In this document: positions 16,834-64,000 of the stretch, one piece after another | Layout of the letters: every line of letters begins with the position of its first letter | How positions within the stretch are numbered: the stretch's first letter is position 1 | Origin: [Phialemoniopsis] sp. UDSM-2020 | Lineage: Eukaryota > Ascomycota > Sordariomycetes > Thyridiales > Thyridiaceae | Direction: 5' to 3' | Assembly: GCA_018873225.1 (NCBI GenBank) | Contig: JAEILZ010000001.1 | Location: 8,520,828-8,584,827, forward strand | DNA: 64,000 bases | Position numbers and translations under genes: made by a program | Notes under the pieces: generated by a model | The model's input: only the letters and a program-made list of their open reading frames with translations | Told to the model about the DNA's origin: nothing | The model's database searches: none

Positions 16834-17568
16834 TTAGTTACTTGGAGACAGAAGCAGGGACAGAGGACATCCAGCCCGCCCCGGAGCCAGTTACCTCATG
16901 CAATACAGAATTAGTTTGCTGCGATCAGAAATTGCATATGCGTGACCTTTCGCCCGTCATGTCGTTTCGCTTCCTACCCTGACTTTGTCTAGAACGCGGT
17001 TTTCTTCTCACCATGAGGATGAACCATGCTTGGCAGTGGCGCTGCTGGTCGTCAGCAGATATGGTTGACTTTGTGATCGGGCATGCACTCCGTCAGATGA
17101 AGAGAGCAAGGGGCTTATCTACGCACAACAAGGTGTTTGTCTAGCGTGTAAGTGCACTTGGCGTGCGCAGGTGTTTGCGGAGATTTGCCGCGGAATATGC
17201 AATTCCGGGCCAGGCGACTCCTCCAGAAACAATTCTGACCAATGAGGAACAACCTGAAGTCATCGACCAACCCCCGGAAAAGCGGGATCCTTTGCTTCAT
17301 GATAGCGACGTTCCACTTCATCTTCGGAAGCAGATCACAGGCCCAATCGCCATCTGCATAAGGGTCAATGGCACGTGGTGTTGCTATGGTCGGTGGCCGA
17401 CTCCGACCGGCCGGGCAGCCCACTAGAAGCATAATCTGTCTGCCCTTCGTAGTCTCTTCCCAGGTCAGGAAACGCCGTCTCAGCTGGAGAACTAGATAGA
17501 CCCTGGAAAGTTTGTGAGGCGAAGACAGTCCAGCCCACATTGCGATTTACACCTCGCCCGTCGTCATC
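16834..17568. promoter_or_regulatory. Intergenic; promoter of HpcH/HpaI aldolase with GGTCGG-N9-CCGACC element
   Basis: A 735 bp non-coding stretch between the first regulator and the aldolase. At 17388-17408 the arms GGTCGG and CCGACC face each other across 9 bp. They are the same six-base arms as the perfect palindrome at 30906-30923, where the spacer is 6. It lies about 160 bp upstream of the aldolase ATG. Spacing is critical for Zn2Cys6 dimers, so this may not be bound by the same factor. Confidence 0.4.
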
Positions 17569-18585
17569 ATGCCTGTCAATATCAATGGTAGCCCGTTGCG
17601 AAAGGCTCTAGAGGAAGGGCGCCACGCTCTTGGAGTTCAGATGGTGATACCTTCGGCGCACGTGGCTCGGGTAGTGGCTGGGGTTCCAGGTCTGACCGTG
17701 AGTCTGATACCAGCTGTGTATGTCTAGGATGAGGAGTACGGCCTGCAACTAACCGCTCCAGCTTTGGCTTCGTGGAGGCAGTACGTCATGATCGATCTGG
17801 AGCACGGCGGGCTGTCCGATATGGAAATGCATGCTTCCATACATGCCATTGCCCCATTTGGTGTGTCGCCCATCGTGAGGCTGCCTTCCGGCGAGCCTTG
17901 GCTCATTAAAAGGGCCCTCGATGCAGGGGCCCACGGCATTGTTATCCCTATGGTCTCAACACCCGTACGCGCGTCGGCGACTAGTCTTATTTTCTGACTA
18001 TGATGCACACATTCTGACATCACACTTTCAGGAAGAGGCGGCAGCCATAGCCAGCGCGGCGCGTTTTCCACCCCAGGGAACTCGTGGCTTCGGGTCGACT
18101 TATTCGCGCGATGCGTTTGGGTGGACAACAGACGATGAATACCGGCTCAAAGCTAATCGAGAGATCATCGTGGGAGTCATGATCGAGACAAGACAGGGCT
18201 TTGACAACGTTGACGCAATTGTCAACACTCCTGGTGTCGGTAGGTGGCGAGCTTGCTTGAGGTGTAGAGCCCTGAATACCTTACGGACTTTGCGATTGAC
18301 CCCTATGCAGATGTGATCTTCACTGGCGAAACGGACTTGTGTCTCAGCATGGGCTACGATCTGACGCCAAACAACCCTCCCGAAGAGGTCATTCAGGCAA
18401 TAGCGCGGGTCTCGTCCGTGGCTAGAGAGGCGAAGAAGTGGCAAGGTGGTCGCATACGACCGTCTACTGGGGGCGTCAAGGACATGATGGCCAGAGGCAT
18501 ACAGATGATTGGTGTTGGGCTGGACGCGTGGGCTCTGCGGGATGTTCTATCTTCTGCGGTTCAGCAGGCAGAAGAGACGTCGTGA
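17569..18585 (+). CDS. HpcH/HpaI-family aldolase (class II, metal-dependent)
   Basis: Four exons, 17569..17697, 17782..17964, 18032..18239 and 18311..18585, give 264 residues, the normal length for the family. Visible motifs are YVMIDLEHGG (strand 2), GVSPIVRLPSGEP with the substrate-carboxylate arginine, ALDAGAHGIVIPMVST, the metal ligand glutamate in MIETRQG, and FTGETDLCLSMGY corresponding to the usual xGxxDLS metal site. These enzymes reversibly split 4-hydroxy-2-oxo acids into pyruvate (or oxaloacetate) and an aldehyde, using Mg or Mn. Exon 2 is set by the acceptor GGCAG before TAC, the only one giving LTYVMIDLEHG. It begins the second catabolic block, ahead of a permease and regulator; the upstream substrate is unknown. 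Confidence 0.9.
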
Positions 18586-18741
18586 AATTTGCTGCTATCT
18601 ATACGGTTTGTGGCTATTCTGGTGGTGAGAAAGAGAGAGAAATACTGGCATGCGACCTAATGTCTTCGACAACCTTCTGACATTTGGCACGCGATCCGAG
18701 GTGGCTGGGCATGGAGAGTCCAAGCTGAATAGCTAAGCACG

Positions 18742-20510
18742 TTACACGACTTCCACTCTTGCAACCTGTTCCCCGTCCTCCAGATCACGTTCTGCTTTGG
18801 TGGTGTGAATAGGTATGTAACGGAAGATGATTGGCAACAGCGACGCCATCACGACACCAAAGCCTAGAAAGCTCGAGACGATGGTGAACCCTTTGGTGTA
18901 GTTGGGTGCGTCGGTGCTGGGCCACAAGTAGCTGCCGTAGATGGAAGACAGCGAGCCGAGCGAATTGACGAGGGCGATGACCACGGCGCGCTTCTCGGGG
19001 GGCTCTGACATGAGTTCCGACGTCCAATTGAGGATGAGGGGTAATGTTAGATAGGTGCCAGCGATGTAGAAGCACATGAAGCCATATCGGACCTTCATGT
19101 TGTTTTTGACAGTGAGGTTGACGACTGCGCTGATGAACCCGACAAGCAGACCACCGGCGATGTGCCAACGGCGATCTTGAAAGCGATCGGCAGTCTGTGA
19201 GAAGACGAGCAGGAAGAGCGTGCCCACTGCCCAGATTGGCACCGTCATCCACTGTGCATCCACGCCCTTGTAACCCATGTTCTTGAGCACCGTAGGAATG
19301 AAGTATGACACGGTCGTGCTTCCATTCTGTGTCATGTAGAGGACAATGAAGAAGTAGGTACGCACGTCGCTTACAGCCGCCTTGACAGACTGCAGGGCCG
19401 TAAGTCGCCTCGTCGTCGTTGCGGAGGCTGCATGGTCATGCATTATGCGGATTGCGGCGAGCTTGCGCTGCTCGGGAGTAAGGCGCTTTGTCGAATGAGG
19501 ATAATCGGGGAGGATGAATATAGAGATCAAGGCAAACCCTATGGTGATGAGTCCTTCGACAAGGAACAACCAACGCCAACCAGCGATGCCGTGTCTCCCG
19601 TCGAGCCTCGCTACCACAGCTCCGGCTATCAGGCCACTAGCAGCTCCAGAAAAGCAGAGGGCAGTGAAGAAGAAGCAAAATCGTTTCGCTAGACAAGTAT
19701 CACCCATTAGATGTGGTCGCCGAGAACCTTGTATAAGAGTTGTCACTGACCCATTTCCATTTTTTTGTACCAGCATGTCATGAGATATAGAACTCCAGGG
19801 AAGAAGCCAGACTCGATGACTCCAAGAAAGAAACGGCACACAAGAATTCCACGGTAATTGTGTACCTGCGACATGCCTGTGACCAATGCACCCCACGCCT
19901 GTTGTTCGTCAGCCAGGCTTTCTGACTCTGTCCCCCCAGGAAACAATGGCACTTACTATCATCAAGCAGGGAAGATAGACAGAAGGACGCGTCCTAGATA
20001 GGATGATATTGGAGGGGATTTCCCAAATGATGTAGCCGATAAAGAAGATCGAGATGAGCATCGAATAATCTGTTGCTATTAGTAGGATTCGGCGTTTGGC
20101 AATTGACCAATCACACAACTTACTTCCATCTGTAAGCCCCAAGTCAACGCTCATTCCGGCGGCATCTGCGTTTCCCTGTCCAGTACATGATAGTGAGCAG
20201 TTGTCTCGATGCCATGCCTTTGCCTTGGGCAGCTCACAATATTGCTGCGGTCTATATACGCCAGGACGCACATGCACCAGAGCATTGGCAGCATAACCAA
20301 GTCGACTTTGAGTAAGAGCCGCTTCTCCTCCTTGGTGCCCGGAACGTAGGCAGCAAGGGCAATGGTCAACTCATCGGCTGGAATGTCACCCTTGAGTTGA
20401 GTTCCAATGCTGTCGACGATGATTTCGCCCTCGGCAGCATCGATTGTGTTGGTTGTGGTTGTAGGTCTGATGGGCGACATGCCTGGGTCTTTGTCCAATT
20501 TCTGATCCAT
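18742..20510 (-). CDS. MFS permease, ACS (allantoate/nicotinate permease-like) family
   Basis: Five exons, complement(18742..19688, 19751..19898, 19957..20069, 20124..20175, 20238..20510), give 510 residues with about twelve hydrophobic helices. Family motifs include LAYIDRSNIGNADAAGM after helix 1, FIGYIIWEIPSNIIL, RFFLGVIESGFFPGVLYLM, WYKKMEMAKR and GWRWLFLVEG. The central loop RLTPEQRKLAAIR is also typical. Proton-driven import of an organic anion across the plasma membrane is the family role. It shares a 431 bp divergent promoter with the Zn2Cys6 regulator at 20942, and that promoter holds a TCGG-N6-CCGA site. It is therefore likely the uptake system of the 17.6-34.4 kb block. Confidence 0.92.
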
Positions 20511-20924
20511 CTTCCCAAGTGAGAATTGATGCGGTGTGCTCTCTCAGCGAGAAATTGGTGGGGAATCTGCTGGAGGACTAATGTCAAAGCCTCGAGTTGT
20601 AGTCTCGCGTTTTGAGCTGCACCTCTGAGATGGCAGTATCCTGGGATTTTATACAAATTGATGGGTGATCTAGGCAGGGGACAAGACATCCCTACGAATT
20701 TGTACCATCTATCTCTTCCCAGGTTCCCACCCTTGGATGGATGGTGGAGTTATGTCATGATAAGCGACGGACTGAACTTGGCCAACTCCATTTCCCCCGC
20801 CTTTGCTGGATCGACCTTATCTCCCCCGCAAGCACAGGCGCTAGCGCAATGCCCGGCTTGCCAAGTTAGTCTGAGGAAATCTCCCCGACTTGACCATAAG
20901 TAGAGCCGTTCTTCCAGTTCCCAC

Positions 20925-20938
20925 TCGGGCCATTCCGA
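20925..20938. promoter_or_regulatory. TCGG-N6-CCGA inverted repeat, I/J-type divergent promoter (permease/regulator)
   Basis: TCGGGCCATTCCGA lies in the 431 bp between the permease (ATG 20510, minus) and the Zn2Cys6 regulator (ATG 20942, plus). The arms extend by one base to CTCGG and CCGAG. It ends three bases before the annotated regulator ATG, so it must lie in the leader unless translation starts at the next methionine (20981). A site there could give autoregulation. Confidence 0.6.
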
Positions 20939-20941
20939 GCC

Positions 20942-23291
20942 ATGAACGGTAATCCCAGATGCCGCCAGAACTCCCCAGTCATGTCGCACCCGTCAACTCC
21001 TCGACCATTGCGTCCCCTCAGCAAACGTGGGCGAGTGTCCCATGCTTGTATCGGATGTCAGCAGAAGAAGCAGAGGGTATGTTCTGGTCTTCAAGTGCTC
21101 CAACCAAGGATCAGATGGCCGTACTAACATGCCTTGTGGCGTGGAAGTGCGACGGGCAGACTCCATCCTGTCGCAACTGCCTCCGGGCAAATAGGGGTTT
21201 GTCTGTCCCAGCCTGCCTGATTCTTCCCAGCAAGTCCAGGACCAAGGACCTGACAATGATTTCCAACGATAGAGTGTATCATCCAAGATCCAGCCACCAA
21301 GAAGAAGCATCCCCGTGGACATATTGAATCTCTCGAGCAACACATTGCTTTACTGGAGGGTGCCCTCAAAGAGCTTAGACCCGGCTTGGATCTTGACCAG
21401 CTCGCCAATAGCCCAGCCGAGCAAGGGACACCTGGCCGTGCCCAGAACCACACGGCAGACGAACCTTGGCAGGGCGATTTCAGTGCATCGCCCACGAATG
21501 CCTCCGCCCCTTCTCAGCAAGAGGCTGCTGTTGGCGGCGAAAAAGAAGGAGTTGGTAATCAGAATGATCTTTCTGGCGTCGGCCTGCTGTATCTACGGTC
21601 AGCCGGCGGCGAGCCGCACTACTTTGGGTCGCCATCGGCCATCTCCTTCTCCAAGATGTTCTCAGCCACATTGCGCGGTGTCAGAACCCAGGCACCGGGG
21701 CTGACGATGGCCGGTGTCACAGACATCTTTGCACGAACCCGGCCGACGCCGACGCCCGTCCCGCTTCCCGACCGATCAGTGACGACCATGTTAACTACAG
21801 CTTTTTTCGACCAGGTGCATCCGCAATTCCCTTTCTTGCACCGGCCAACCTACTTGCAGTGGGAGAGCGACGTCATGGCAGCTCAGGAGGGAGGCTTCCC
21901 CCCCAATCCGGCGCATCTCTTCTTCGTCTACGCTCTCGCCGCTGTTGGAGCATTGATCGGACCACTTGCCGGTGCAACACTTCCCGAGGGTCTCTACGCC
22001 TCAGCCGAAAGCTTGCTAGAGTCCGTCATGCAGCTCAATTCTCTCGAGTCGATTCAGGCGATATTATGCTGCGCCATGTACTCGATGAGATCCCCAGTCG
22101 GGGTTTCCGTATGGTAAGAAACCCAAGCCATTCTCTCCACAACACTCTTCTCACATGAGTTACGGCGGCAGGACCCTTTCAGGGTTTGCACTGAGACAAT
22201 GCATCGAGCTCGGCCTACATCGAAAAATCCCTTGGTCAAAGGTTGAATCGGATGTACTCAAGTGCCAGATGCGAAGGCGTGTCTTCTGGTGTTCCTACAA
22301 CCTCGACCGTGCTGTTGCTGTCACTCTCGGCCGACCGGTGGGGATAATGGATAGTGACATCGACGTCGAATTCCCGCTCGATATCAACGACGAGCATATC
22401 ACCGTGTCAGGACTCTTGGCCGAGCCACGCACCAGCAATACACAGCCACCGACCGTCATTTCAGCAGCGATCCACACAATCCGTGTGCGTCAGATCTGGG
22501 CTCGCATGCAAAGCCTGATGGATCCTATGACGGGAGTCGGGAGCCTTGCTATCGGGTTCGGCGGCGGAAGCCATTCTATGATCGCAGAAGGGTTCAAGAG
22601 GGAGCTGATCGAGTGGCGAGAGACCGCACCGCCACAGCTGCCTACCAATCAGTTGCATAACAACAGCTTCGGATCTCCAGAGTGGTTCGAACTGATGTTT
22701 CATCACTCCATCCTATTGCTACATCGCAACCGGCTCGGCCATGGCGGAGGTCAACATCAATCTCAGCACGACAGTACAGAAGCAATGAGCGCCGTCTACA
22801 TTGAGTGCACCCGTACTGCTCACGACATCTGCCACATATACCGTCGTCTTCTTGTTGGCCAGAGGCTGTCAGACACCTGGGGCGCGCTACACGTCTTGTT
22901 CTTGGGCGGAACGACATTCTTGCACTGTCTTTGGGTAAGCGCAGAGGCTCGGACCTCGTACCGTCTCGATCGGGTTGCCGCAACCTGTACAGCATGTGCA
23001 GTGGTCCTAGCTGTCATGGCTGAGCGTTGGGCAGCTGTAGAACCCTACCGAGATGCTTTTGACATGTTGTCAGACGCAACACAGTCCATGCTTACTGATG
23101 CGATGGCAACAAGTGCCGGTGGTGGAATCAGGAATACTCAGACGACAGGGCTGGAAGCTGTCACCCAGTCGCCAGCCATGCCTGTACTTTCGGCGAGCGT
23201 GAATGATCATCTCTCAGACTACTTGTCACATATCGCAGAAGTAGGCATGTGTTCTTCGGTTGAAGCACTGTTGTGCGATATGATTGAATAG
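20942..23291 (+). CDS. Zn2Cys6 transcription factor, Ppr1-like DNA-binding region
   Basis: Four exons, 20942..21076, 21148..21196, 21273..22113 and 22172..23291, give 714 residues. The zinc cluster is CIGCQQKKQRCDGQTPSC then CRNC and C, with Cys36, 39, 46, 53, 56 and 63, and is split over three exons. The linker DPATKKKHPRGHIESLE (67-83) matches the DPAT-PR-LE linker and coiled-coil entry of Ppr1-type factors, which recognise CGG-N6-CCG. A fungal-specific middle domain follows: VHPQFPFLHRPTYLQWE, TLSGFALRQCIELGLHRK, RRRVFWCSYNLDR and LGRPVGIMDSDIDVEFP. It is a nuclear activator, most likely of the surrounding catabolic genes, since exact TCGG-N6-CCGA sites recur in their promoters. A downstream start at 20981 is possible. 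It converges on the RidA gene with 38 bp between stops. Confidence 0.92.
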
Positions 23292-23329
23292 ATGGTACTG
23301 TTCAAAATCAACAAAGCTCCTAATATCGA

Positions 23330-23851
23330 TCATAAATGTCCAATGCATTCTATCTCTACGTCCGTGTTGCGTGCCAACTCCTTTACGCATATGCAAGCTC
23401 GAGCCTTTCGACGGAGATGTTATTTGGGGAGCCTAAGAGAGGGAGTACAAGGGTGTGCGATGAAGACTTACTGGCCTAGGTTCAGAGAAGAAATTGTTGT
23501 ACGCCTCGTTCAGCACTGGCACATCAGAGATGCTGATCACGTAAATTGTGACCTTTAGGACCTTCTCCTTGGCGGAGCCTGCAGCTTTCAACACCGACTC
23601 GAGGTTTCTGAGAGCCTGGGTCTGAGCCAAAATGTTAGCCAACTCCTTCTCAAACTGTGAAATGCTAGCTGACAATGTCCACATACGGTGCGTGCCCCAA
23701 TATTGCCTTCTACCAGTGTGTTGGTTTCGGGGTTCATGCCGAGCGAGCCCGAGCAGTAGACTATCCCGTTGTATACGGTGGCCTGCGATAACGCCGGATA
23801 CGGCCCCGGTGCCTTGTTCGTCGTTACGATCTCATAGCCGTAGCGCGGCAT
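23330..23851 (-). CDS. RidA (YjgF/YER057c/UK114) family imine/enamine deaminase
   Basis: Three exons, complement(23330..23404, 23472..23621, 23687..23851), give 129 residues, the standard RidA length. Recognisable parts are APGPYPALSQATVYNGIVYCSGSLGMNPETN, TQALRNLESVLKAAGSAKEKVLKVTIYV, the C-terminal RPARACICVKELARNTDVEIECIG and a YNNFF turn. The catalytic arginine of RidA proteins corresponds to the one in RPARACIC. RidA proteins hydrolyse reactive 2-aminoacrylate-type imines made by PLP enzymes, and catabolic clusters often carry a dedicated copy. It is divergent from a class III aminotransferase (662 bp apart), so it probably clears an imine formed in the same pathway. Exon 3 uses a weak acceptor (TCGAAAG), but only this gives the family C terminus. 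Confidence 0.92.
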
Positions 23852-24513
23852 GGTTGCATGTACCTAGGATTTCGAGATAAGAAGCTTCGGTTAGAAGACC
23901 GAAGTGGAGATGACATAGATAACACACTGGCCTACATTTTCCTTTCGGTTTGAACTGTTTGTATATACTTATCTATCGTGTCCTAGTCTGAAGTCAAGAC
24001 CCAGGGCCGAGCCCGGAGTGTTCAACCTACGCGCCATGCTAATCGGTATTACACACTGAGGATGCCGATTGTGCGATACGATGTGCTGGGTTAGTGATCT
24101 CGGCCCCGACCGGCAGGTTTTGAACACCGCGTCATCGCGCATGGCCCACAGCTCTTTGCAACCATCCGCCACTATCTTTCAAATCTCCGTGCAATTTTGC
24201 TGGAACAATACCCTACTGTTCGTGTTGGAGGGTCGGGGAAAATTGAAGTGGTGCGTTGCTTTTGTGGAGACGGGTTGGCCCGGCCATCCTTTTTAGACGT
24301 GTCGATCCATCGGTTTGGACCGAGTCCCCAAGCCCTTGGGGGGTTTACTGGATTCATACAAGTCGTGCTGCACAAATGGGTAACAATTGAGGGCCTGCAA
24401 GAAGTGGCGTCGTAGGACTACCGACTTACAGACCCATAAAGAGTGACCCGTCAGATGACGAATGAGAAAGGTCGAATTCATGACACGCGTTAACGGGCAA
24501 GGTCTGAAAGAAA
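23852..24513. promoter_or_regulatory. Divergent promoter RidA / class III aminotransferase
   Basis: This 662 bp interval has an exact TCGG-N6-CCGA site at 24310-24323. Two looser relatives lie near the RidA side: CTTCGG and CCGAAG arms across 8 bp at 23885-23904, and TCGGTTTGAACTGT at 23945-23958. A TATATAC-like stretch around 23961-23968 sits about 110 bp upstream of the RidA ATG. Confidence 0.55.
24310..24323. promoter_or_regulatory. TCGG-N6-CCGA inverted repeat, RidA / aminotransferase promoter
   Basis: TCGGTTTGGACCGA, 190 bp upstream of the aminotransferase ATG and 459 bp from the RidA ATG. It has the same 4+6+4 geometry as the sites at 20925, 27498 and 30908, and the same TCGGTT start as three other sites of the block. 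Confidence 0.65.
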
Positions 24514-25884
24514 ATGGAGACCGCTTTGAGTGCCGCGTTGGATCGCTTCAATGAGCGTAACCCCAAGTCGAGGGCCATCTTTGAAAAGGCACAGGCCAGC
24601 CTTCCCGGTGGCAACACCAGGTCTGCGATCTTTACAGCTCCGTTCCCGATTAGCATGCGAAGAGGCGTAGGCTACAAACTATTCGATGAAGACGGTCACG
24701 AGTACGTCGCCCTCGGCTAACCCTGGAATAAGAGCAAAGCCGTTTCTGACCAGTGTCACACATATAGATATGTTGACCTCGTGGGCGAGCTCACAGCAGG
24801 GATCTTCGGCCATACCAATGCCCGTCTGACAGACACCATTGTGAGCACATTTCGGGACATCGGCTTTCACCTCGGAGCGACGACGGCGCATGAGGAAAAG
24901 TACGCTTCCTACTTGTGTGACCGCTTTGGTATTGACAACATCCGCTTCACCAACTCGGGCACAGAGGCAAACCTGCATTGTCTTGCAGCAGCCCGACGTT
25001 TCACGGGCCGACGCCGTGTTGTGGCATTCCGAGGCGGGTATCACGGCGGTGTTTTGTCGTTCGGTTCTGGCGTGGCAGAGAATAATGTTGATCGTGATGA
25101 CTGGATAGTTGTCCAGTACAATGATCTGGATGAGCTCAGAAGCGCCTTTGATCAACATGGAAAGGACATTGCCGCCGTCATTATGGAAGGGGTGCAGGGT
25201 GCCAGTGGCGCGATTTCTGCCACGCCCGAGTTTCTGGACGAAGTACGGGAAGTGACGAGACGAGCTGGCAGCCTTTTCATCCTTGATGAAGTCATCACGT
25301 CCCGCCTTGCTCCTGGAGGGCTCAAAAGTCTTCTTACAGTCGAACCAGATTTGGTGACGTACGGCAAATACCTTGGCGGAGGTATGCCTTTCGGTGCTTT
25401 CGGCGGCCGTAACGACATCATGCGTGTCTATGACCCGCGGATCGGTCCGGCGGCACTGGGCCATTCGGGGACTTTCCAGAACAACGTAGCCATGTTACGC
25501 GCAGGGCTTGTTGGCATGTCGCAGATATACAGTCCTGACGTTGTGGCGCCCTTCAACGAGCGCGGCCAAGCCTTGCGGGAGCGTCTGGCTGCCATTCTAC
25601 GGGGTACTCGCATGTGTGTTACTGGTCGGGGTACGCTGATGTGTATCCACTCATCAAAGACGGAGCTGCGTGCGGAGTCAGTCACCTGCAAGGACGACGT
25701 TGTAGTAGTTGAGGATCCGAATCTCAAAAGACTATTCTGGCTTGAGATGCTGGAACGAGGGTTTTGGGTATTGCTGCGTGGCTCGATTGCCTTGAATCTG
25801 CAGATCACGGATGAAGCGATCCAAGCATTTGTAGAAGAGGTCCAGAACTTTATCCACCGACATGAGAGCTTGGTCAGAGTTTAG
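24514..25884 (+). CDS. Class III PLP aminotransferase, glutamate-1-semialdehyde aminomutase-like
   Basis: Two exons, 24514..24701 and 24768..25884, give 434 residues. Motifs in order: the GSAM-type opening RAIFEKAQASLPGGNTRS, FTNSGTEANLHCLAAAR for phosphate binding, FRGGYHGG, LFILDEVITSR with the PLP-pyridine Asp236, and YGKYLGGGMPFGAFGGR with Schiff-base Lys263, then GHSGTFQNNVAM. Fungi make 5-aminolevulinate by the Shemin route, so a heme role is unlikely. Fungal members are usually catabolic or secondary-metabolite aminotransferases or aminomutases. The neighbours (RidA, hydroxyacid dehydrogenases, aldolases) suggest it removes or moves an amino group during breakdown of the cluster substrate. 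Confidence 0.93.
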
Positions 25885-26186
25885 ACAACCATGCAAAATA
25901 GCTACTTTCTAAACCATAAGATATTGAATCAATGGCCATGCACAGTAGCATGGTTTGTACATAAATCACACCGCCTGACTTCAGCGAGTTGAAGGATGAA
26001 TCTTTAACCCGGCTTGGGCGTTTGAGAAAGATTCAACAAATTCTGACATAGTAATACAGAAAGATTGCCGGTATTTCAGTGACAGAACGACAGTAACTCC
26101 AGCGAGTACGCAAATCATACGAGGTTGGAGTGAATTAGTTCCCACGGATGTCTCTGATTAGGTTCTTAATCAATCTCGGTAATCAT
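25885..26186. other. Convergent intergenic, nothing further seen
   Basis: About 300 bp lie between the 3' ends of the aminotransferase and the D-2-hydroxyacid dehydrogenase genes. It is mildly AT-rich and contains no open frame of note, so it probably holds both polyadenylation regions. Confidence 0.5.
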
Positions 26187-27355
26187 CTAGAATGAGTTGA
26201 CCGGCGAGACCGCCTTCCCGCTGCTTCTCAATGCTATAATGTTGTTCAAGCACTCATGATATGCGTTCTTCCAAGCAACATCTGTCCACGAACCCATGTG
26301 TGGTTGGACTGTGCATTGGTCGCTCGCCCGGAAGAATGGACTTGCGTAACCTGTCAGGAAAGTTTCTCATGTCGACAGAAGGGGGAAACTCACTTGATCT
26401 TTGGCTCATTGTCAAACACGTCTAATCCTGCACGCGCAACCTTTCCTGACCACAAAGCTTGGATCAGAGCTTTCTCCTCGACAACTGGTCCGCGCCCGGT
26501 GTTAACGAGGAAGACGCCATCCTTCATTTGACCGAACTCTCTTTCCCCAATGAGTCCGCGCGTCGACTCATTCAACGGACAATTGACCGAGATGACATCA
26601 GACGTAGAGAGCAATTGCTTGAGGCTGCCACAGTACAGCACGTCCAAAGCTTCCTCGTCACTTGTGGGAATGCGTGAGCGGTTGTGATACTGAACTTTCA
26701 TTCCGAACACACGAGCTTTTCTTGCAACATGCTGCAACAAGGGATCATGTTAGGGACTCAGAATGCAGGTGAGAGGGGGCATTTCTTTACCTTGCCAATC
26801 TTGCCCATGCCTATGATCCCCAGAGTAAGTCCGTTCGGGTCCCGTGGAGGAGTCTTGGCGGTCCTCCAGCCTCCCTGGCGCACTAACCTCTCATTGTACG
26901 AGCTATCTCGGAGGGTAGCAAGGATGAGTAGAATGGCAATATCAGCAGTTGGTTCCGCCACTGCATTTATTGTGTTTGTGACATAGATCTTGTTCTCGGA
27001 GAACCAATTCAAGTCAAACTCGCTATACCCGGCATTCACGCATGCAGCGATCTTCAAGCCCGGTACCAATGGCCCTAGAAGCTCCTCGTCAAATCTATCA
27101 TAGGCAGAGTTACCCATGAGTAGTAGGACAGCATAAAAGGGACCCGACTCGGCAGCGTCGGCAATCAATTTGATCGTGCCTGGGCGGTCAGTCGGATAGA
27201 TTATCTGCGGTGCAGAATTAGTAAGTGCTCAGTCAAGGTCAAGCCGTGGCGTGACATGCACGTACATGGACATCAAACTGAGACTCGAAGTCTTTCAGCA
27301 CCTGGGGGTCAGCCCAAGTAGGCGGACCCAAAGACAGTACCTTGGGCTTAGACAT
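26187..27355 (-). CDS. D-isomer-specific 2-hydroxyacid dehydrogenase
   Basis: Four exons, complement(26187..26340, 26394..26731, 26791..27204, 27266..27355), give 331 residues. The NAD(P) motif GMGKIG is at 162-167 after LTLGII. The catalytic triad is present as Arg248 (VNTGRGPVV), Glu277 (VFDNEP) and His295 (VQPHMGSWTD). The family normally reduces 2-oxo acids to D-2-hydroxy acids, or the reverse, in the cytosol. The last exon uses the acceptor ACGCAAG, giving EPKINPFFRASDQC as in homologues. It shares a 357 bp divergent promoter with a class II aldolase, and that promoter holds a TCGG-N6-CCGA site. Together with the L-type FMN oxidase nearby, the pathway seems to handle 2-hydroxy acids of both configurations. 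Confidence 0.93.
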
Positions 27356-27497
27356 CGCAATCTAGTAAATGACAGTTACCAAAGATACCACCCAGTACGC
27401 ACTCGTTTAGGAGAATACATTTATAGCCTACTAGCTAGCCACAGAGGGGTTTCAAAGTACTGGTTTTCCGGGCCTCGGCGTTGGTAGTGGCGCGTGG

Positions 27498-27511
27498 TCG
27501 GTTCATTCCGA
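27498..27511. promoter_or_regulatory. TCGG-N6-CCGA inverted repeat, dehydrogenase / class II aldolase promoter
   Basis: TCGGTTCATTCCGA, 143 bp from the dehydrogenase ATG (27355) and 202 bp from the aldolase ATG (27713). Its central location between two divergent genes would let one dimer act on both. Confidence 0.65.
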
Positions 27512-27712
27512 GTCTCCGGGTCAGTCCAGCGAGTAGGCTTCGTTCCACATTGGTTCGCAGATGCGGGGGCGCCATGGTGGCACATCAGCGTACGGTCACA
27601 GTTCGAAGTGGTATTTGAAAGAAACAGGATAGCAGAGGATCTTTCTTGGTTCAGATGAAGTGGCAGAAATCTTAACTCAGGCATCTACTTCCTCGAGCTT
27701 GGAATTCTTACA

Positions 27713-28743
27713 ATGTCGGCCACGACGACTACCACGGCCTTGAGCCTCTCAGAGGAAACAAAAGTCCAGGCATCTCCCGTCAAGGATAGCATCACAAGCG
27801 ACTTGTGGGTGATTCCCAGGTTTACTGATAAGTATGCCGAAAGGCAATGGGCCAAGGAACACATGGCGGGTGCTTTCCGGGTGTTCGCAAAGCTTGGCTA
27901 CAACGACGGTGCAGGCGGTCACATCAGCCTGAGAGACCCTGTCCGGCCAGACTGTTTTTGGATCAGTGAGTGTTAAACCCTGGCCATGGGTCTCCGTTAT
28001 ACTTACACATGAAGACCCGTATCGGATGCACTTTGGCATGATCAGAGCGAGCGATCTCATATTGGTATCAGAAGACGGGAAGCCATTGACCCCTACTAAA
28101 TACAAGGTCAATCTTGCTGGTTTCAAGATTCATGCGGCTTTGCACAAGGCTCGTCCGGACGTTAATGCGGCCTGCCATACCCATTCCCCTTACGGCCGAG
28201 CATGGTCGACATTCGGACGTGGCATCGAGATGCTGAATCAAGGTACGGCTATTGATCAATCCGACATACCGTGATTGGGAGGCTATCGCTAAATGTACAA
28301 CACCTAGATACCTGTTATTTCTACAAGAGTCTGTCTATTTACGAGGGGTTTGGCGGGGTTGCCTTTGGAGATGAAGAAGGAGAGCGTATTGCAACTGCGC
28401 TCGGCCCAACCAATAAGAATCTCATTCTCCAGAATCACGGGTAAGTGCGGGCTCTAAGCAAGCCACCATCTTTTCGAGCTACACTAAAACATATATCAGA
28501 CTTCTTACGTGTGGAGAGACTGTTGACGAGGCTGCTGCCTACTTTATTGCACTGGAACAAGCGTGCCAGGCACAGCTGCTTGTCGAGGCTGCAGCTGCAA
28601 ATGGCGTTACGAAAAGATATATTGGAGACGTGGAGGCCGAGTTCACACATCATTCGCTCGCAAAACCGGCAGTTGTGTACTCACAGTTTCAACCTGAGTA
28701 TGAGATGGTACTCAGGGAGAGCAAAGGAGACTTTCTCGAGTGA
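27713..28743 (+). CDS. Class II aldolase/adducin family protein
   Basis: Four exons, 27713..27965, 28015..28242, 28308..28440 and 28500..28743, give 285 residues. The zinc ligands are seen as His139 and His141 in ACHTHSPYGRAW and His204 in LILQNHG; LGYNDGAGGHISLRDP is the phosphate/substrate loop. Fungal proteins of this length are annotated as fuculose-phosphate-aldolase-like or as decarboxylase/aldolase-like enzymes, mostly untested. They cleave or decarboxylate small hydroxy-oxo acids with a divalent metal. It is divergent from the D-2-hydroxyacid dehydrogenase. Together with the HpcH/HpaI aldolase, the block has two unrelated metal aldolases, pointing to stepwise carbon-carbon cleavage of the substrate. 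Confidence 0.93.
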
Positions 28744-29142
28744 CATATAGAAAAGGTTCGCTAGAGACATACAAATCCTCACCCGCCCCAATTGAAGATG
28801 AAGCCAAATAGCTATATCTGGACCTTTGTCTACCTTCGGGCACTTTATAGACCAAGAATGAGATCTAGCGATTCCGGTCTTACTTGCAGGTGACAATTGT
28901 ATCACCATTCTGGTCTTAATTATCGGAACTGTAAGCTATCATATTGTCGTTCTAATAAAGGCGAAGTCTCCATCGTATCCATCATCATATCGAGAGAATC
29001 GTTTATCAAGAGGATTTGGCCCCAAGTTAGGAAAAGCCTAGATTGGTACTCGACGTCTTTCATGATAATAGGTCTGTGATACATCTCAGGCAAGGGTCTG
29101 CAAAATAGTTTGTAGGCACGTTGGAGTCTGAGTCGTCATACT
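28744..29142. other. Convergent intergenic, nothing seen
   Basis: Roughly 400 bp lie between the 3' ends of the class II aldolase and the FMN oxidase genes. The open frame reading from 29242 down to 29060 on the minus strand is a shadow of the oxidase's last exon read in a different phase. No separate gene is supported. Confidence 0.5.
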
Positions 29143-30639
29143 CTAGAGCCTGCTCAAGAGACCGTTCGTTCCAAGAACGGAGATATGCTTTCTCGAGATA
29201 TCTTTGACGATTTTGCAGCTGGACTCTTGTCAGCCGACTCACACTCTGCGAAGTAATGAATGAATGGGGCCATTACTTACCCTGCCAGGGCCATAGCGGT
29301 CCTCAGTTCAGTCTCGAGTATCTTGACTGCAAGCTCTACCCCTTCTTGACCATTGTACTAATGATCCAAGGTGTCAGTGCAAGGTACTGGAGAGCCGTGG
29401 TTAGGCGTATCGAAGTACTTACTGCGAGTCCCCAGATTGGAATGCGTCCTATGAAACAACAGTCCGCTCCAAGAGCAAGGGCTTTGAAGATATCAGTGCC
29501 CCGTCGTATCCCACCATCAATGCCAATCTTGATGCGTCCCCTGCCCACAGGAGCACACTCAGCCAGTGCATCCACCGTGGCAGGCACACCGTCAAGCTGC
29601 CGCCCACCATGGTTTGAGATGATGATACCGTCAATCCCGTGGCGAATAGCTAGCAAAACGTCCTCGGGAGTGTAGACCCCTTTGAGCCAAATTTCCATCC
29701 TGTTTGTATGGGCCTTGATCCATGGAATCACAGATTCCCACGAGTTGCTGGCGTCGCGCCCGGAGTTTCGAAAAGAGCGTACGGGAGCTCTACGTTTGGT
29801 ACCATCCTTGTCAACATACTCATCGCCGTCGAAGTTGGGTAGACAGAAGGGCTCCGGCAACTGCAGGTTGTTTCGCTGTTCACTCAATCGATGGCCAAGG
29901 ACGGGGGCGTCTACCGTGATGAAAAGCGCCTTGTACCCAGCAGCTGCACAGACGATCATTCTTCAGTCATTGATCATTACTCATCGGGGAAGGTGCACCG
30001 ACCTTCAGCTCTCTTGATCCAGCCAAGACTTTTGGAACGATCCTTCAAGACGCTCAACTGGAAAGCGTAAGGGGTAGGCGATTGGCGTCGCTCATCAATT
30101 ACATGCTCGAGAGACACAGTGGAGTAGGTCGACAGTGCCATGGGAATCCCAAGACTTGCTGCTGCTCTTGACGTTGCTCTCTCCCCCTCGGGATGAGCCA
30201 TACAATGCATTGCTGTCGGTGCGAAACCAAGAGGTAGATTTATCTGATGGGAAGCGGCTTAGAGGCTGCTTGCACTGGCACAAACATTGCAATACCACTC
30301 ACCTTGGTCCCGAATAACTCAGTCGACGTATCCACATTGTCAACGTCTGATAGTATACGGGGTCTGATCTTGAAGCGGTCGAAGGCACTTTCATTTTCTT
30401 GAAGTCTGACGGGTGCTCATTAGTCGAGGACAATATTTCTTTCCCATGTGAACCTACGATAACATGTCCATGACACCTCCGTTATAATACTCTGTGGCCT
30501 GGTCAGCTATCAGTCTTTCGTCTTCGCCTCTGGCACAGCGTCACTCACGCCTTACTGTAGGTGCCATCTTGGCTGAGGCGGCCGCCTTCAACTCCCGTAT
30601 AGTCAATATCATTTTGGACTTGCTCGCTGTGGTGTCCAT
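29143..30639 (-). CDS. FMN-dependent L-2-hydroxyacid oxidase/dehydrogenase
   Basis: Seven exons, complement(29143..29218, 29281..29357, 29423..29943, 30003..30243, 30303..30405, 30458..30491, 30549..30639), give 380 residues, the usual length for glycolate/lactate oxidase relatives. Visible are PTVRQYYNGGVMDML, FKIRPRILSDV, INLPLGFAPTAMHCMAHPEGE, FITVDAPVLGHR, and the active-site IISNHGGRQLDG with catalytic His268 and Arg271, followed by IGIDGGIRRGTD for FMN phosphate. The end GCKIVKDISRKHISVLGTNGLLSRL is the family C terminus and fixes the last intron (29219..29280). It lacks a cytochrome b domain, so oxygen or an unknown acceptor is used. It oxidises L-2-hydroxy acids to 2-oxo acids and is divergent from the cupin gene. 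Confidence 0.92.
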
Positions 30640-31073
30640 TTCGTCGATGATGCCCCGTTGAGTTGCGATTGGGAATATTAGGTATCAGCTCTCAGAACAG
30701 GTGGCAGATTGTCGTCTTGAACATCGATACGGAATCTGTGACCAGATTAGTCAGTCAGTCACTCCTGGGATCTCGCCCGCGGTCAAGAACTCGTGGCCGA
30801 TCCCGAAAGTGGTCCCGGCCAAGTGAAAAATCAGGGTAGATGTTTGCCATCAACCCGGACTTGGATGATCCCGGAATCATCGCCCCGCCCCACATTGGAG
30901 GATTTGGTCGGTTCGAACCGACCTTCTCTCCACGCCACCAATCTGTCCCCGTGATGCAAGGTCTACATCTAACATGAGCAGGGCCATCATATTTGTATGG
31001 AAGCAATGGAAGGTGACGCCGCTGAAAACAAAAGCTCCAGCAGAAGGGTCATCCTTGAACAGCTTCACGAGAG
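30640..31073. promoter_or_regulatory. Divergent promoter, FMN oxidase / cupin
   Basis: The 434 bp between ATGs at 30639 and 31074 contains the perfect 18 bp palindrome at 30906-30923, 267 bp from one start and about 150 bp from the other. No coding frame is supported here. Confidence 0.6.
30906..30923. promoter_or_regulatory. Perfect 18 bp palindrome containing TCGG-N6-CCGA
   Basis: GGTCGGTTCGAACCGACC is its own reverse complement over all 18 bases. The core TCGG-TTCGAA-CCGA (30908-30921) is the strongest of the set. Ppr1 of yeast and UaY of Aspergillus bind TCGG-N6-CCGA-type sites (established knowledge). Binding by the regulator encoded at 20942 is inferred. Confidence 0.72.
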
Positions 31074-31709
31074 ATGGACACGATGAGTCCCCCAGAAGAG
31101 TACTGCTTGCGTCCAACACAATGGGTGCCGAACAGCGTATTGCCAGCACTAGTGTATCGAGGCGCTTGCAGTCACTGTGCAAACGAGGATGAAGTCAAGG
31201 CATTTCTCGAGTCCAACGGAGGATGGGTCAAAGTTGTAAGTCTTGCCTTTTGGGGCCCTGGTTAAGGCTCGCCTCAGAGGCACAGTTTCACTGACTCATT
31301 ATTTGGAGTGAAGGGGGCCTGGAACTCATGGTTCAAAGCGCACTATCATCCGAATGTCCACGAGTGTTATGGCGTTGTTCGCGGGTCTTCGGAACTGTCA
31401 ATTGGGCGTGGACCATTGGACGATGCCTCCAAGGGCCAGCTTATCAAGGTGAACCGAGGCGATGTGGTCGTCCTGCCTGCCGGGGTTTCTCATTGTTCTT
31501 CGACTGCAAGTGAAGATTACCGCTTCGTTGTGCTGCTTCCCAGGCAAGGGCCAGGTTTCATTAGTCATTGGTGCGACAGTGCACAAGCTGCGGCAAAGGA
31601 CAAAGAAGAGTGTCGTGCTGTCCCAATTCCTGTCTTAGATCCAGTCCAGGGTGCTGGCGGATATCTAGTGAAACGATGGTATGAGATTGGCTCTCGCCCT
31701 CTAGAATAG
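31074..31709 (+). CDS. Cupin-domain protein, YjlB-like
   Basis: Two exons, 31074..31235 and 31314..31709, give 185 residues. The segment FKAHYHPNVHECYGVVRGSSELSIG is cupin motif 1 with His/His/Glu-type metal ligands. VNRGDVVVLPAGVSHCSS is cupin motif 2 with the third histidine. The opening (CLRPTQWVPNSVLPALVYRG) and overall length fit the YjlB-like group of small single-domain cupins, whose reactions are not established. Candidate roles include isomerase, lactonase-like or dioxygenase activity, or sensing. It is divergent from the FMN oxidase and just upstream of the Baeyer-Villiger monooxygenase. A second in-frame ATG lies at 31083, and either could be used. Confidence 0.85.
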
Positions 31710-32373
31710 CCACTTCAACCCTGACTCGATTTCAACGTAATGGTAATCCGCAACTTTGGAAACTCCTTAACTGTGCATCTTCAGGGCAATCTAACCTCAA
31801 TATCCTACCCGCATTCACGCGTTTGACACTGGCATCTCTTGTGATGACTTGGAACTTTAGCAGACAAGTCTTGTGTGTCTATCAAGTTCTGAAAGTCGTC
31901 AATGAATGATGAGGTCAACTTCCAGTAACAGATGCAAAGTGAGTCGGGTGTAGCCCATTTTCCGGGCTCCGCTTCGCCCCCGGGCACAGCTGCCCAATGG
32001 TTGCGGATCACCAGATCGGTTCAATGCGAATGGGTACTTGGGTGATGTATCATTTTCCTCCGACAAGCCTTGAATTTACCCCACCGTCGGTTCAGCCCGC
32101 CGGAGGCACCTTGAATTCGTGCACACTCGTCGCACAACATTCACGTAGGTGGAAGCTCTCCCATGGGCTGATCCTTGGCTTAGGATTGGATACAATCAAG
32201 GTTCGAACTCGAGAAGAGACATGATCATAAGGCCACAGAAACCTGACATATCAGTAGAGATCTAACCCTTCGGAACATAAGAATTGCTCTTCATTTTATT
32301 CAGAAAAGGACTTTTTACTACTAGAAACGCCTTCTTTCTAATTCTTCTACCGCACATCCCCTTACAGACAACG
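31710..32373. promoter_or_regulatory. Promoter of the Baeyer-Villiger monooxygenase with two CGG-N6 elements
   Basis: A 664 bp non-coding interval. TCGGTTCAGCCCGC at 32087-32100 matches TCGG-N6-CCGA except for the last base, so CGG-N6-CCG is intact. TCGGTTCAATGCGA at 32016-32029 has one mismatch in the right arm. Both begin TCGGTTCA, like the sites at 27498 and 30908. They lie about 270 and 345 bp upstream of the ATG. Confidence 0.55.
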
Positions 32374-34430
32374 ATGAGTGCAGCACGTGCGATCCCTAAA
32401 CCACAAGATGCACCGGTTGACTATGCCAGGCCGATCAAAGTGATTTGTATCGGAGCTGGTATGTCAGGCATACTTGCTGGCATCCGATTTCAGCAGAGAA
32501 TACCCAACCTTGAGCTCACGATATATGAGAAGAATGACGAGGTTGGCGGGGTATGGTACGAGAACAGGTAATGTCTTCTTTAATTAGTCTTGGGGTAAGG
32601 ACAAACGTCTCTGACTGCAGTGGTATAGATATCCCGGAGTGACATGTGGTAAGAAAGCACGCCTGCCGAGCTACGATGACATTGGTAACTCAAAATATAA
32701 GACAGATGTCCCCTCGCATTGTTTTCAGTACACTTTCGCGAATAACCCTGACTGGTCCCATTTCTTCGCCCCCGGGAAAGAAATTGGCGACTACTTTCGG
32801 GATGTCGCTGAAAAGTACGGGGTCAGGAAGCTCGTCCAATTTGAGCACATCTTCCGGTCTGCACGATGGCTTGACAGCAGATCTCAATGGGAGATCAAGG
32901 TCTTGCGTGTCCGGGACCAGCTGGTATGTTTCCAGGATACTGATGGAATTCGAGTTGCTAAATTCCGATTCTAGGAATTCGTGGACTATTGCGATGTCTT
33001 CATCAAGGCGACCGGGAACTTGAACAAATGGACATGGCCGAAATTTCCTGGACTGAACAAGTTCAAGGGTGACCTGATCCATTCCGCACACTGGGATGAG
33101 TCCTTCGATCCTGAAGGAAAGCGAGTTGCTGTTGTGGGCTACGGAGCAACAGCTGTGCAGCTAGTTCCCGCATTACTCCCCAAAGTTCAGTCTATGGATC
33201 ATTATGTCCGAGGGCAAGCCTGGATCTCGCCGGCGGGCTATGTGGCGGCCGATCCAAGAAAGGCAAACACTGACGTCCACAACTGTAAGTTGACCAGATG
33301 AACATGCTCGTATTCGCATATAATAACTTGTTATAGTTGAGCATCCCCTGGAAGAGCGACAAAACTTTGCAAACCACCCCGAATTATATATACAATATCG
33401 CAAAACGGTCGAGGACTATGTGAACAACGCTCAGATGATCCACTGGGTTGGATCCTCAATGAATGAGACCTTCTCTAAAGCCACTGAAGATTCAATGGCA
33501 CGGAGACTATCGAGGAAGCCAGAGATTTTCAAGCACATGAGACCCACATACCCAGTCGCGTGCCGCCGAGTCTCTCCTGGCCCTCGCTACCTGGAGTGTC
33601 TCGTGGAGGACAAACTCAACTTCATCCCAAAGGGCGTCAGGCAAGTGACGGAAACAGGCATAGAAGATGATGACGGGACGCATCGAGAAGTGGATGCAAT
33701 CATCTGTGCCACGGGATTCGACACGTAAGAACTTGGCTTTTGACAGCTTCCGAGCCCAAAACTAACGTACAACGGGTGCAGTTCCTTGAGAACGAACGAG
33801 ACACCAGTCTACGGTATTGATGGTGTTTCATTAGATGACCTATGGCTCGAGGATCCGGGCGCATACATGTCGATCTGCCCGCCACAGATGCCAAACATGT
33901 TTCTCTTCGTCGGTCCCAACGGCGCTCCTGGGGCTGGTTCCACGATCCACATGAGTGAGTGCGCTTGTGAGTACATTATCAAATGTATTAAAAAGCTACA
34001 GATAGAGAATCTGCGATGGATGATGCCCAAGGACTCGGCCGTGAGAGCCTTTATGAGGGAAGTAGATCGATACTTTGCGAAGACAACCTTTGCATTCACG
34101 TGTAACAACTGGGCAAAGAGGACGGCGAATGGGAGAATGTTGGGATATTGGCCTGGCGCTGCGGTACATCAGAGGGCCACTCTAGAGAACGTGCGGTTCG
34201 AGGACTTTGAGTATGCATCATTCGAAGATGAACAAGACAGCCTTGCATGGATGGGCAACGGAAGAATCATGGCGGCGGAGAAAGGGTTGTCGACCTCGAC
34301 TTACTTGGATCATGCCGATGTTCCGCCTATTCCGGGTGCAGCGTCAGCGGTTCCATGCGTAGCTGCAATGACTCCCATCACTGAAGGCGAGTACGTCTTC
34401 GATATCGGCAAGGTGGACTGCTCGGATTAG
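32374..34430 (+). CDS. Baeyer-Villiger-type FAD monooxygenase
   Basis: Six exons, 32374..32567, 32629..32648, 32706..32923, 32975..33284, 33337..33724 and 33782..34430, give 592 residues. Exon 2 is a 20 bp microexon needed for NRYPGVTCDVPSH. Two Rossmann motifs are seen, CIGAGMSG (FAD, 25-32) and VAVVGYGATAVQ (NADPH). Between them the type I BVMO fingerprint FxGxxxHxxxWD sits at 174-185 (FKGDLIHSAHWD). Such enzymes insert oxygen next to a ketone, forming an ester or lactone, with NADPH and O2; a few are N- or S-oxygenases. In this block it may open or extend a ring or acyl ketone before hydroxy-acid oxidation and aldol cleavage. No obvious esterase/lactonase gene is next to it. Confidence 0.94.
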
Positions 34431-35541: not shown

Positions 35542-36787
35542 TCAACTCGGATCAACGGCCGTAAGCAGCGAGTCTTGCTGTGCCTCAAAATCACACGGTT
35601 CGCTAGGCTGCCAGACAATTCCGCACATCGTCATCCACGAACACACTGCTCTCATTGCAAACTCCGCATGCCACCCCATCCCGTTCCCGAGGCACAAGCA
35701 GTTCGAGCCCAGAACGCGGGCCAGAGGCTCAAACATCCTGCTCTGCGCCGGGGCGCTGTGGACCAAAGCCCATTGGAACTGGGCGAATTGGCAGGAACCC
35801 ATTCTCTCCTCGATGTAGCGCTCTGTATCCAAAGGCGACCAGAGCTGGTCCCGCGTCAAGCCCTTGTTGGCAAAATCTTGAAAGACATGGCGTTGTAAAA
35901 GCTCTCGCTTGACCGCATCGGCGCCCGGATGCTCCCCCGACATGTAGCCCAGCTTGACGAACTCCATCCGCACATCGACCATCGCCGCAATGAATTGCAC
36001 GTCGCGCAGGGCTTCGGAGTGGCGAATCGAGCGCTCGAAGACGTTGCGGAAGGTCGAATCGGCCGGCAGGGTGTAGATGTCATTCAAGGTGTGATCATTG
36101 ATGACCTCTTTGAGAGCTTTATAACAGTAGCCCATCGAGGTCCACGCCAGCCTTCCGGCCATGGTGCTTTTGCCCGTGCCGACGTATGGTGCAATGTCCG
36201 GGGGCGGCTCGAATATCCTGACCGGCCGCGATGGCTCGAACCAGACTCCGTAGTCGAGTCGGGGGCTGAGGCGTCCGGCGTGAGTAGTAGATACGTGCTT
36301 GGAGACCTCTACGGATCTGGCCGTTCGGGTGTCTTCGGATGGCCCATGTTGGCATGGCTCTTGGGTTGCAGCCGGTGGACGAGTAGAGGCAGAGCATGAG
36401 CTCTCCGGTGTCAAGGCAGACTGGGCTGCTGTATCCGGACCCTCTTCTGACTTGTCCTGACCTGATGACGGGCACGCTGCAGACAACCGTTCGGCTCGCT
36501 GAACAGCAATCTCAAGCCGAGAAGGGTCGTCGGACTTGGCAGCCCGCACGATGTCGGCAACTAGATTCTTAAGCGTCGCATTCTCTTCCTTCAATCTCTG
36601 CACCGATGCTGATTGCCGCTGGCGGAATGCGCGCTGGGCGGCCTTGCCGCGATCTCGTCGACGCTGAGAGACATGTCAGCAATCTCTGGGCCATTCGTCG
36701 TGCGAGTCATTGAATCACGTTGAGGTGTTGGTGTGTGCTTGTTTGAGGAAGGTAACTCACTCGCAGTTCTGCTTCCGCATTTTCCAT
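35542..36787 (-). CDS. bZIP transcription factor with DUF3425-like C-terminal domain
   Basis: Two exons, complement(35542..36663, 36761..36787), give 382 residues. The 27 bp first exon gives MENAEAELR and joins to RRRDRGKAAQRAFRQRQ, a fungal bZIP basic region, followed by a short leucine zipper (LKEENATLKNLVADIV). A low-complexity Ser/Pro/Thr linker leads to a C-terminal helical domain: TLPADSTFRNVFERSIRHSEALRDVQF and YIEERMGSCQFAQFQWALVHSAPAQSRMFEPLARVLG. This architecture is the DUF3425-type bZIP group common in filamentous fungi, often linked to stress or secondary metabolism. It is a nuclear DNA-binding regulator. The neighbour upstream is a divergently transcribed SDR (ATGs 585 bp apart). 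Confidence 0.88.
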
Positions 36788-63893: not shown

Positions 63894-64000
63894 TTAGGGT
63901 TAGGGTTAGGGTTAGGGTTAGGGTTAGGGTTAGGGTTAGGGTTAGGGTTAGGGTTAGGGTTAGGGTTAGGGTTAGGGTTAGGGTTAGGGTTAGGGTTAGG
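63894..64000 (+). repeat. Telomere, (TTAGGG)n
   Basis: About 18 uninterrupted TTAGGG units run to the last base. The G-rich strand reads 5'->3' towards the right end, so the right end of the window is the physical chromosome end, or the assembly edge of it. TTAGGG is the usual telomere repeat of filamentous ascomycetes. Confidence 0.98.

Follow-up and report, generated by a model that had tools for sequence, protein, structure and literature searches.

The Zn2Cys6 regulators Ppr1 of Saccharomyces cerevisiae and UaY, the purine activator of Aspergillus nidulans, bind TCGG-N6-CCGA, the same sites that lie in the promoters described here. In Gal4 and Ppr1, two lysines of the zinc cluster contact CGG and the linker that follows determines the spacing (PMC4245848, in part), and the title of a UaY paper in the reference list of PMC5746545 ties UaY binding specificity to PPR1. 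We analysed the right end of contig C1 of [Phialemoniopsis] sp. UDSM-2020, a stretch of 64,000 nucleotides (the window) in a genome of 44.18 Mb on 11 contigs. Our gene models place ten genes, with none interrupting, between 17569 and 34430; one of them, gene C, encodes a Ppr1-like regulator, and four divergent promoters each carry a TCGG-N6-CCGA site. We consider it probable, with moderate confidence, that this is a catabolic cluster under its own Zn2Cys6 activator C acting at these sites, the breakdown of a beta-amino acid being our guess at the pathway. The ten genes, with the letters used throughout, are:

17569–18585, plus strand: gene A, HpcH/HpaI-type aldolase (4 exons, 264 residues; PF03328, 107.9 bits)
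18742–20510, minus strand: gene B, MFS permease (4 exons, 528 residues; PF07690)
20942–23291, plus strand: gene C, Zn2Cys6 regulator of Ppr1/UaY type (4 exons, 714 residues)
23330–23851, minus strand: gene D, RidA family (3 exons, 129 residues; TIGR00004 above cut-off)
24514–25884, plus strand: gene E, class III aminotransferase, beta-phenylalanine-aminotransferase-like (2 exons, 434 residues)
26187–27355, minus strand: gene F, D-2-hydroxyacid dehydrogenase (4 exons, 331 residues)
27713–28743, plus strand: gene G, class II aldolase-fold protein, TqaM/NovR-like (4 exons, 285 residues)
29060–30639, minus strand: gene H, flavin mononucleotide-dependent 2-hydroxyacid oxidase (7 exons, 402 residues)
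31074–31709, plus strand: gene I, cupin (2 exons, 185 residues)
32374–34430, plus strand: gene J, Baeyer–Villiger-type flavin monooxygenase (6 exons, 592 residues)

The original prediction, made from the bare sequence, had named the families of nine of these genes, which Pfam bears out; the tenth, left unnamed there, is the HpcH/HpaI aldolase at 17569–18585. It had also placed one exact TCGG-N6-CCGA site in each divergent promoter and a one-base variant before J. An exact scan finds all of these where they were predicted, together with a second one-mismatch copy in the promoter of J:

20925–20938, no strand assigned: site 1, TCGGGCCATTCCGA, 415 bp upstream of B and 4 bp upstream of C (43 bp from Met14)
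24310–24323, no strand assigned: site 2, TCGGTTTGGACCGA, 459 bp upstream of D and 191 bp upstream of E
27498–27511, no strand assigned: site 3, TCGGTTCATTCCGA, 143 bp upstream of F and 202 bp upstream of G
30908–30921, no strand assigned: site 4, TCGGTTCGAACCGA, whose 14 bp form a perfect palindrome, 269 bp upstream of H and 153 bp upstream of I
32016–32029, no strand assigned: one-mismatch site, TCGGTTCAATGCGA, 345 bp upstream of J
32087–32100, no strand assigned: one-mismatch site, TCGGTTCAGCCCGC, 274 bp upstream of J, in the same promoter as the copy at 32016

The distances from start codon to site run from 143 to 459 bp, except for site 1 with respect to the regulator, whose start is either at 20942 or at Met14 (20981). 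A TT directly after the first half-site is common to three of the exact sites and both one-mismatch sites before J; site 1 is without it. In a scan of the six upstream regions of the cluster for TCGG-Nx-CCGA with x from 0 to 15, the N6 spacing is present in four of the six regions, and N2, N3, N8 and N9 are present in one each. The direct repeat CCGA-N2-CCGA occurs in two of the six. Among the other spacings, TCGGTGGCCGACTCCGA at 17390–17406, upstream of gene A, contains nested half-sites with N3 and N9 spacing, and TCGGTTAGAAGACCGA at 23887–23902 is an N8-spaced version near the RidA start codon.

The window holds five exact matches against a mean of 1.05 in dinucleotide shuffles, and none of 100 shuffles reaches five. 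With one mismatch allowed there are 39 matches against 25.7 expected, a number reached by one shuffle in 100; one-mismatch sites by themselves therefore weigh little. At the genome rate, the four divergent promoters (431, 662, 357 and 434 bp) would together hold about 0.035 sites, and four are seen. The probability of at least one site in each of the four is 4.7e-9 for a motif chosen after reading the sequence, and allowing 600 alternative motifs, a guessed number, raises this to about 3e-6. The genome-wide scan for enrichment that the original prediction called for counted 824 motif sites against 973 for a reversed-pattern control. There is thus no overall enrichment in the genome; the special feature is the local concentration in promoters. 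These numbers bear on the explanation that the sites are effects of chance or composition and that the promoters are not co-regulated through them. An eight-base motif picked after reading, its shortfall against the reversed control, the 39 one-mismatch sites and an exact copy inside an exon of an SDR gene (37766) all fit that explanation, which we nevertheless regard as highly improbable given four sites where about 0.035 are expected, further sites in a paralogous cluster on contig C6, and the TT spacer bases common to three exact and two one-mismatch sites.

The fifth exact copy, at 37766–37779, lies within the SDR gene exon 37373–38108; like UaY, it was absent from the original prediction. 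Nearby, TCGGTGCAAACCGG at 36915–36928 differs from the motif by one mismatch and lies in the promoter region that the SDR gene (37373–38333) shares with a divergent bZIP-like gene (35542–36844), for which Pfam gave no match; it may reflect further regulon members or chance.

The TT-extended form TCGGTT-N4-CCGA, in which TT was picked after seeing the sites, has 41 hits at 39 places genome-wide; the reversed control has 57 and 56 per strand. Three of the 39 places lie in the cluster, where 0.012 are expected, and one lies in the C6 paralogous cluster. We compared 26 of the 36 places outside the cluster (3-kb loci L011, L016–L022 and L026–L043) with the ten cluster proteins. Beyond L036, which is the C6 cluster, these loci gave weak paralogue matches only, one F-like (L028, 34%) and one E-like (L035, 32%), and among 14 control loci whose motif lacks the TT, one gave a B-like match (L013). 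For a site on contig C11, TCGGTTCAAACCGA (L068), none of the ten cluster proteins matches in its 10 kb, and it was treated as chance.

The protein evidence comes from regulator C. Its zinc cluster has the pattern CX2CX6CX6CX2CX6C with Lys-Lys between the second and third cysteines (ACIGCQQKKQRCDGQTPSCRNCLRANREC; PF00172 above cut-off). Residues 34–96 give a 63-residue gap-free alignment to Ppr1 (1PYI) with 45.9 bits, the highest score among 20 solved matches and above those of Lac9 and Gal4. By the same alignment the linker between the zinc cluster and the dimerisation helix has the length of that in Ppr1, and it contains DPATKKKHPR; the regulator start at 20942 (or at Met14) and this linker, both named in the original prediction, are present in our gene model. 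The CGG-contact lysines are present as K42 and K43, and among 13 aligned relatives, selected for carrying the zinc-cluster domain, K43 and the linker DP are invariant and K42 is nearly so. These features make C a putative reader of the CGG-N6-CCG sites in the cluster promoters.

If UaY does recognise the same site, the motif marks a regulator subfamily and not C alone. The sites could then be read mainly by another UaY/Ppr1-type regulator, for example UaY, with C having a different or additional target; the genome contains 83 stretches similar to C, several per gene, and some such regulators could share the motif. We judge this rather improbable, as C has the right domain and apparently accompanies the enzymes in some fungi, and as the uricase neighbourhood (3.4 kb, L064), the single purine gene considered, contains no exact site and only the one-mismatch TCGGAGTGGCCCGT. 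Purine control by UaY, once considered as the main explanation, was demoted to a rival because of the lack of an exact site near uricase.

Further support for C as the activator of its own cluster comes from a paralogous cluster on contig C6 (750001–760000; L067), which holds the second-closest paralogue of C (751598–753512). Its other genes encode an HGLS protein of the 2-oxoadipate dioxygenase/decarboxylase family (PF07063, 496 bits), a class II aldolase related to G (59–66% in two pieces), a dehydrogenase related to F (40–56% in two pieces) and a weakly racemase-like protein (Asp_Glu_race, 21.7 bits, below cut-off); among the ten cluster queries, C, F and G alone matched in these 10 kb. The locus has exact TCGG-N6-CCGA sites at 5605, 5808 and 8364, and all three lie in its two divergent promoters, bounded by start codons at 5399/6049 and 8117/8626 when the first ATG of each open frame is taken; the racemase-like open frame extends through the third site, and its first ATG lies beyond it. 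The Poisson probability of at least three sites in 10 kb is 9e-4. For the two sites other than that at 5605, the probability is 0.015 over 10 kb, falling to 2.3e-4 when only the two promoters (1157 bp) are counted. No 10-kb window out of 29,900 across the first 3.0 Mb of C1 contains as many as three sites (57 listed places of the 824).

Related modules occur elsewhere in the genome. The closest paralogue of C (L066) is transcribed divergently from a B-related permease (47%); by their positions, which are mostly what these modules are known from, regulator, G-like and F-like genes stand together at C6:3921–3934 kb and C10:2579–2586 kb, and a regulator stands with an F-like gene at C4:278–291 kb. 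The 3–4 kb loci around the regulators of these modules on C6, C10 and C4 (L048, L049, L052 and L053) contain no exact site. Around a distant regulator paralogue (28% identity; C1:5663207–5664970), 4.8 kb of DNA (L056) carry exact sites at 1857 and 3771.

The regulator also appears to travel with cluster enzymes in some fungi. The fungal protein search gives no gene positions, so a shared contig was judged from equal contig size among the matches listed, which for the aminotransferase are the best 120 of 7,696, with at most 8,000 candidates scored; absence from these lists carries little weight because only the best matches are in them. Relatives of C, E and I apparently lie on one contig in Thozetella sp. 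PMI_491, Hypoxylon crocopeplum and Clonostachys rosea, those of E and C do so in C. byssicola and Penicillium angulare, and those of C and the cupin do so in H. texense (locus tags 007133 and 007135) and P. glandicola. Five of eight named cupin relatives apparently share a contig with a regulator, and the remaining three (Whalleya, Lindgomyces and Clohesyomyces; 41–46% identity) have no regulator among the matches listed. Two annotated Colletotrichum models join a J relative (69–71% identity) and a C relative (48%) in one fusion, which makes it probable that these genes are neighbours there.

The substrate can be approached through the enzymes. RidA proteins, represented by D, clear reactive imines. 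The best solved relatives of aminotransferase E are beta-phenylalanine aminotransferases, with three beta-transaminase sequences at 372, 336 and 336 bits versus at most 215 for others; its best NCBIfam match, GSA aminomutase, is below cut-off (257 of 398 bits). R36 and R400 of E align to R41 and R398 of beta-phenylalanine aminotransferase, which we take to be substrate-binding arginines, although a literature search listed no paper confirming this. Among solved structures G matches, just after a chain named fuculose-1-phosphate aldolase (4XXF), TqaM at 200 bits and, further down, NovR at 168, with E. coli-type fuculose-phosphate aldolases at 47 or less, and it exceeds the cut-off of NCBIfam PRK06208 (class II aldolase/adducin family). 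Its H...HxH region, presumably metal-binding, aligns with those of TqaM and NovR. Since E is nearest to beta-phenylalanine aminotransferases and G is a relative of TqaM, we propose beta-amino-acid catabolism, and the enzyme set suggests a beta-amino acid, possibly alpha-hydroxylated, as the substrate. A would suit retro-aldol cleavage. For the cupin I, NCBIfam names no family and no solved-structure relative is found by sequence at E 0.001; for J, the NCBIfam names are all below cut-off.

H matches glycolate, lactate and 4-hydroxymandelate oxidases, and F matches glyoxylate reductase and, lower, D-mandelate dehydrogenase; by these matches both appear to suit 2-hydroxyacids. A serious rival is therefore a catabolic regulon for aromatic or aliphatic 2-hydroxy acids of the mandelate or lactate kind, with the aminotransferase acting on a side intermediate. 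The likeness of G to NovR fits it as well, as does the retention of F- and G-type genes in the C6 sister cluster, where C, F and G are the only ones of the ten queries to match. We still consider it unlikely, for in our judgement E, RidA and J are hard to fit into a 2-hydroxy-acid route.

Passages of two papers bear on the chemistry. TqaM is a biosynthetic enzyme that carries out the decarboxylative oxidation of 3-amino-2R-hydroxy-3-methylbutanoate (PMC11880133), and the beta-keto acid derived from beta-phenylalanine yields CO2 and acetophenone, a Baeyer–Villiger step then being suggested (PMC6150868, section 21). With a biosynthetic enzyme as a close solved relative of G, and with the cluster located near a telomere, the ten genes might instead form a small cluster that makes a non-protein amino acid. 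That seems quite improbable: a Pfam search of the ten products found no non-ribosomal peptide synthetase, polyketide synthase or terpene synthase domains, and in our judgement an MFS permease, RidA and hydroxyacid-oxidising enzymes better suit catabolism. (TTAGGG)n telomere repeats close the window at 63894–64000, about 30–46 kb from the cluster, whose near end is about 29.5 kb from the telomere. AT-rich DNA precedes the repeat, with a GC fraction of 0.32 over the last 2 kb. An ascomycete host is indicated by the introns, by the Zn2Cys6 regulators and by the best-matching protein relatives (Thozetella, Hypoxylon, Clonostachys and Penicillium).

For the proposed catabolic cluster under C, we infer the following course and order of events. 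A dimer of C would bind the exact TCGG-N6-CCGA sites of the four divergent promoters and, probably with lower affinity, the two one-mismatch copies before J. In the presence of an inducer, the permease, aminotransferase, RidA, dehydrogenase, oxidase, aldolase-fold protein, cupin and monooxygenase genes would be turned on jointly. B would import a beta-amino acid, perhaps with an alpha-hydroxyl or aromatic group, E would take off the beta-amino group, and RidA would hydrolyse reactive imines. The beta-keto acid could then lose CO2, giving a ketone that J could oxidise to an ester. F and H may interconvert 2-hydroxy and 2-oxo acids, G may carry out an oxidative decarboxylation, and A may perform a retro-aldol cleavage. 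Inspection of the C-termini found no canonical peroxisomal signal in any of the ten proteins, the nearest being the GHL of RidA.

Several observations weigh against this interpretation. Site 1 is only 4–43 bp from the start codon of C, which is odd for an activator of C itself; gene A has no exact N6 site in the 569 bp scanned upstream; and the motif was picked after the sequence had been seen. The site at 5605 in the C6 cluster was known before that locus was chosen. The operator, present in the C6 cluster, is only imperfect at the closest paralogue, where L066 has no exact site and carries CGG-N6-CCG with imperfect flanks at 3606 and 3842 between the genes, and it is missing from the C10 module, where the 2 kb read between dehydrogenase and aldolase contain no site even with one mismatch. 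On the side of the enzymes, a protein named fuculose-1-phosphate aldolase (4XXF, 208 bits) comes out slightly ahead of TqaM among the solved matches of G. In the fungal matches listed, the aminotransferase is on a different contig from the cupin relative in Whalleya and Clohesyomyces, and on a different contig from the regulator in Capronia epimyces, Corynespora cassiicola, Pleurostoma richardsiae and Colletotrichum siamense. Bacterial beta-aminotransferase loci (80 kept, some short) show no shared neighbourhood, with G-like genes in two of the 80, A-like genes in two and an F-like gene in one; the pathway is therefore unsupported by bacterial operons. In the two G-like cases, a class II aldolase is near the bacterial beta-aminotransferase (L131, 1550–2122, and L140, 12967–13629), and these pairs are a possible bacterial counterpart of the E–G pair.

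Taken together, the evidence gives the predicted regulon good support at eight genes, weak support at J and none at A. The original prediction of a ten-gene regulon is thus supported for the eight genes that share an exact site, J having one-mismatch copies only and A none. Its further claim of a dedicated regulon under a Ppr1-type factor gains from the gap-free Ppr1 match, sites in four of four divergent promoters, the sites in the C6 cluster and the apparent co-conservation; gene A and the C10 module do not conform to it. More broadly, we tentatively put forward as a possibility that the locus encodes a fungal beta-amino-acid pathway (possibly for alpha-hydroxy-beta-amino acids such as isoserines) under a UaY/Ppr1-type activator, and that it is one of several paralogous modules across the genome, each with a regulator, a class II aldolase-fold enzyme and a hydroxyacid dehydrogenase, which have diverged in substrate, at least two of them keeping the operator. 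If true, this would give a likely substrate class for a fungal cluster seemingly conserved in several species, and a single-genome case of duplicated regulators keeping or losing their operator while the enzyme sets change. Beta-amino acids are present in natural compounds, and their microbial breakdown is described as rarely studied in the abstract of PMC6150868. In the titles and abstract openings listed by searches of open-licence PMC papers for the pathway or the cluster, we found nothing pointing to this cluster.

How does the locus compare with described systems? C shares the Zn2Cys6 domain with Ppr1 and UaY and, by the 1PYI alignment, the linker length with Ppr1. Among its 62 listed relatives, two bear the name positive regulator of purine utilization and one a name that marks it as related to it; its identity to proteins with UaY-like names, which are not UaY itself, is 25% (P0180) and 40% (P0153). 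What sets C apart from Ppr1 and UaY is its place in a ten-gene enzyme cluster that has no purine or pyrimidine genes. E resembles the beta-phenylalanine aminotransferase of Variovorax paradoxus (PDB 4AO9) over residues 2–431 (372 bits, 44% identity) in sequence; unlike that enzyme, E is fungal and stands within a multi-enzyme cluster. G resembles TqaM and NovR, decarboxylating enzymes with the class II aldolase fold, although its top solved match is named fuculose-1-phosphate aldolase. The A. nidulans nicotinate (hxn) cluster, as described in part of PMC5746545, likewise consists of clustered, co-regulated genes with their own regulator, but that regulator is of the Cys2His2 class and the genes are others. 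The cluster reported here thus belongs to a known type, the pathway-specific cluster with its own Zn2Cys6 activator, and its predicted substrate class and its family of sister modules are the more interesting part.

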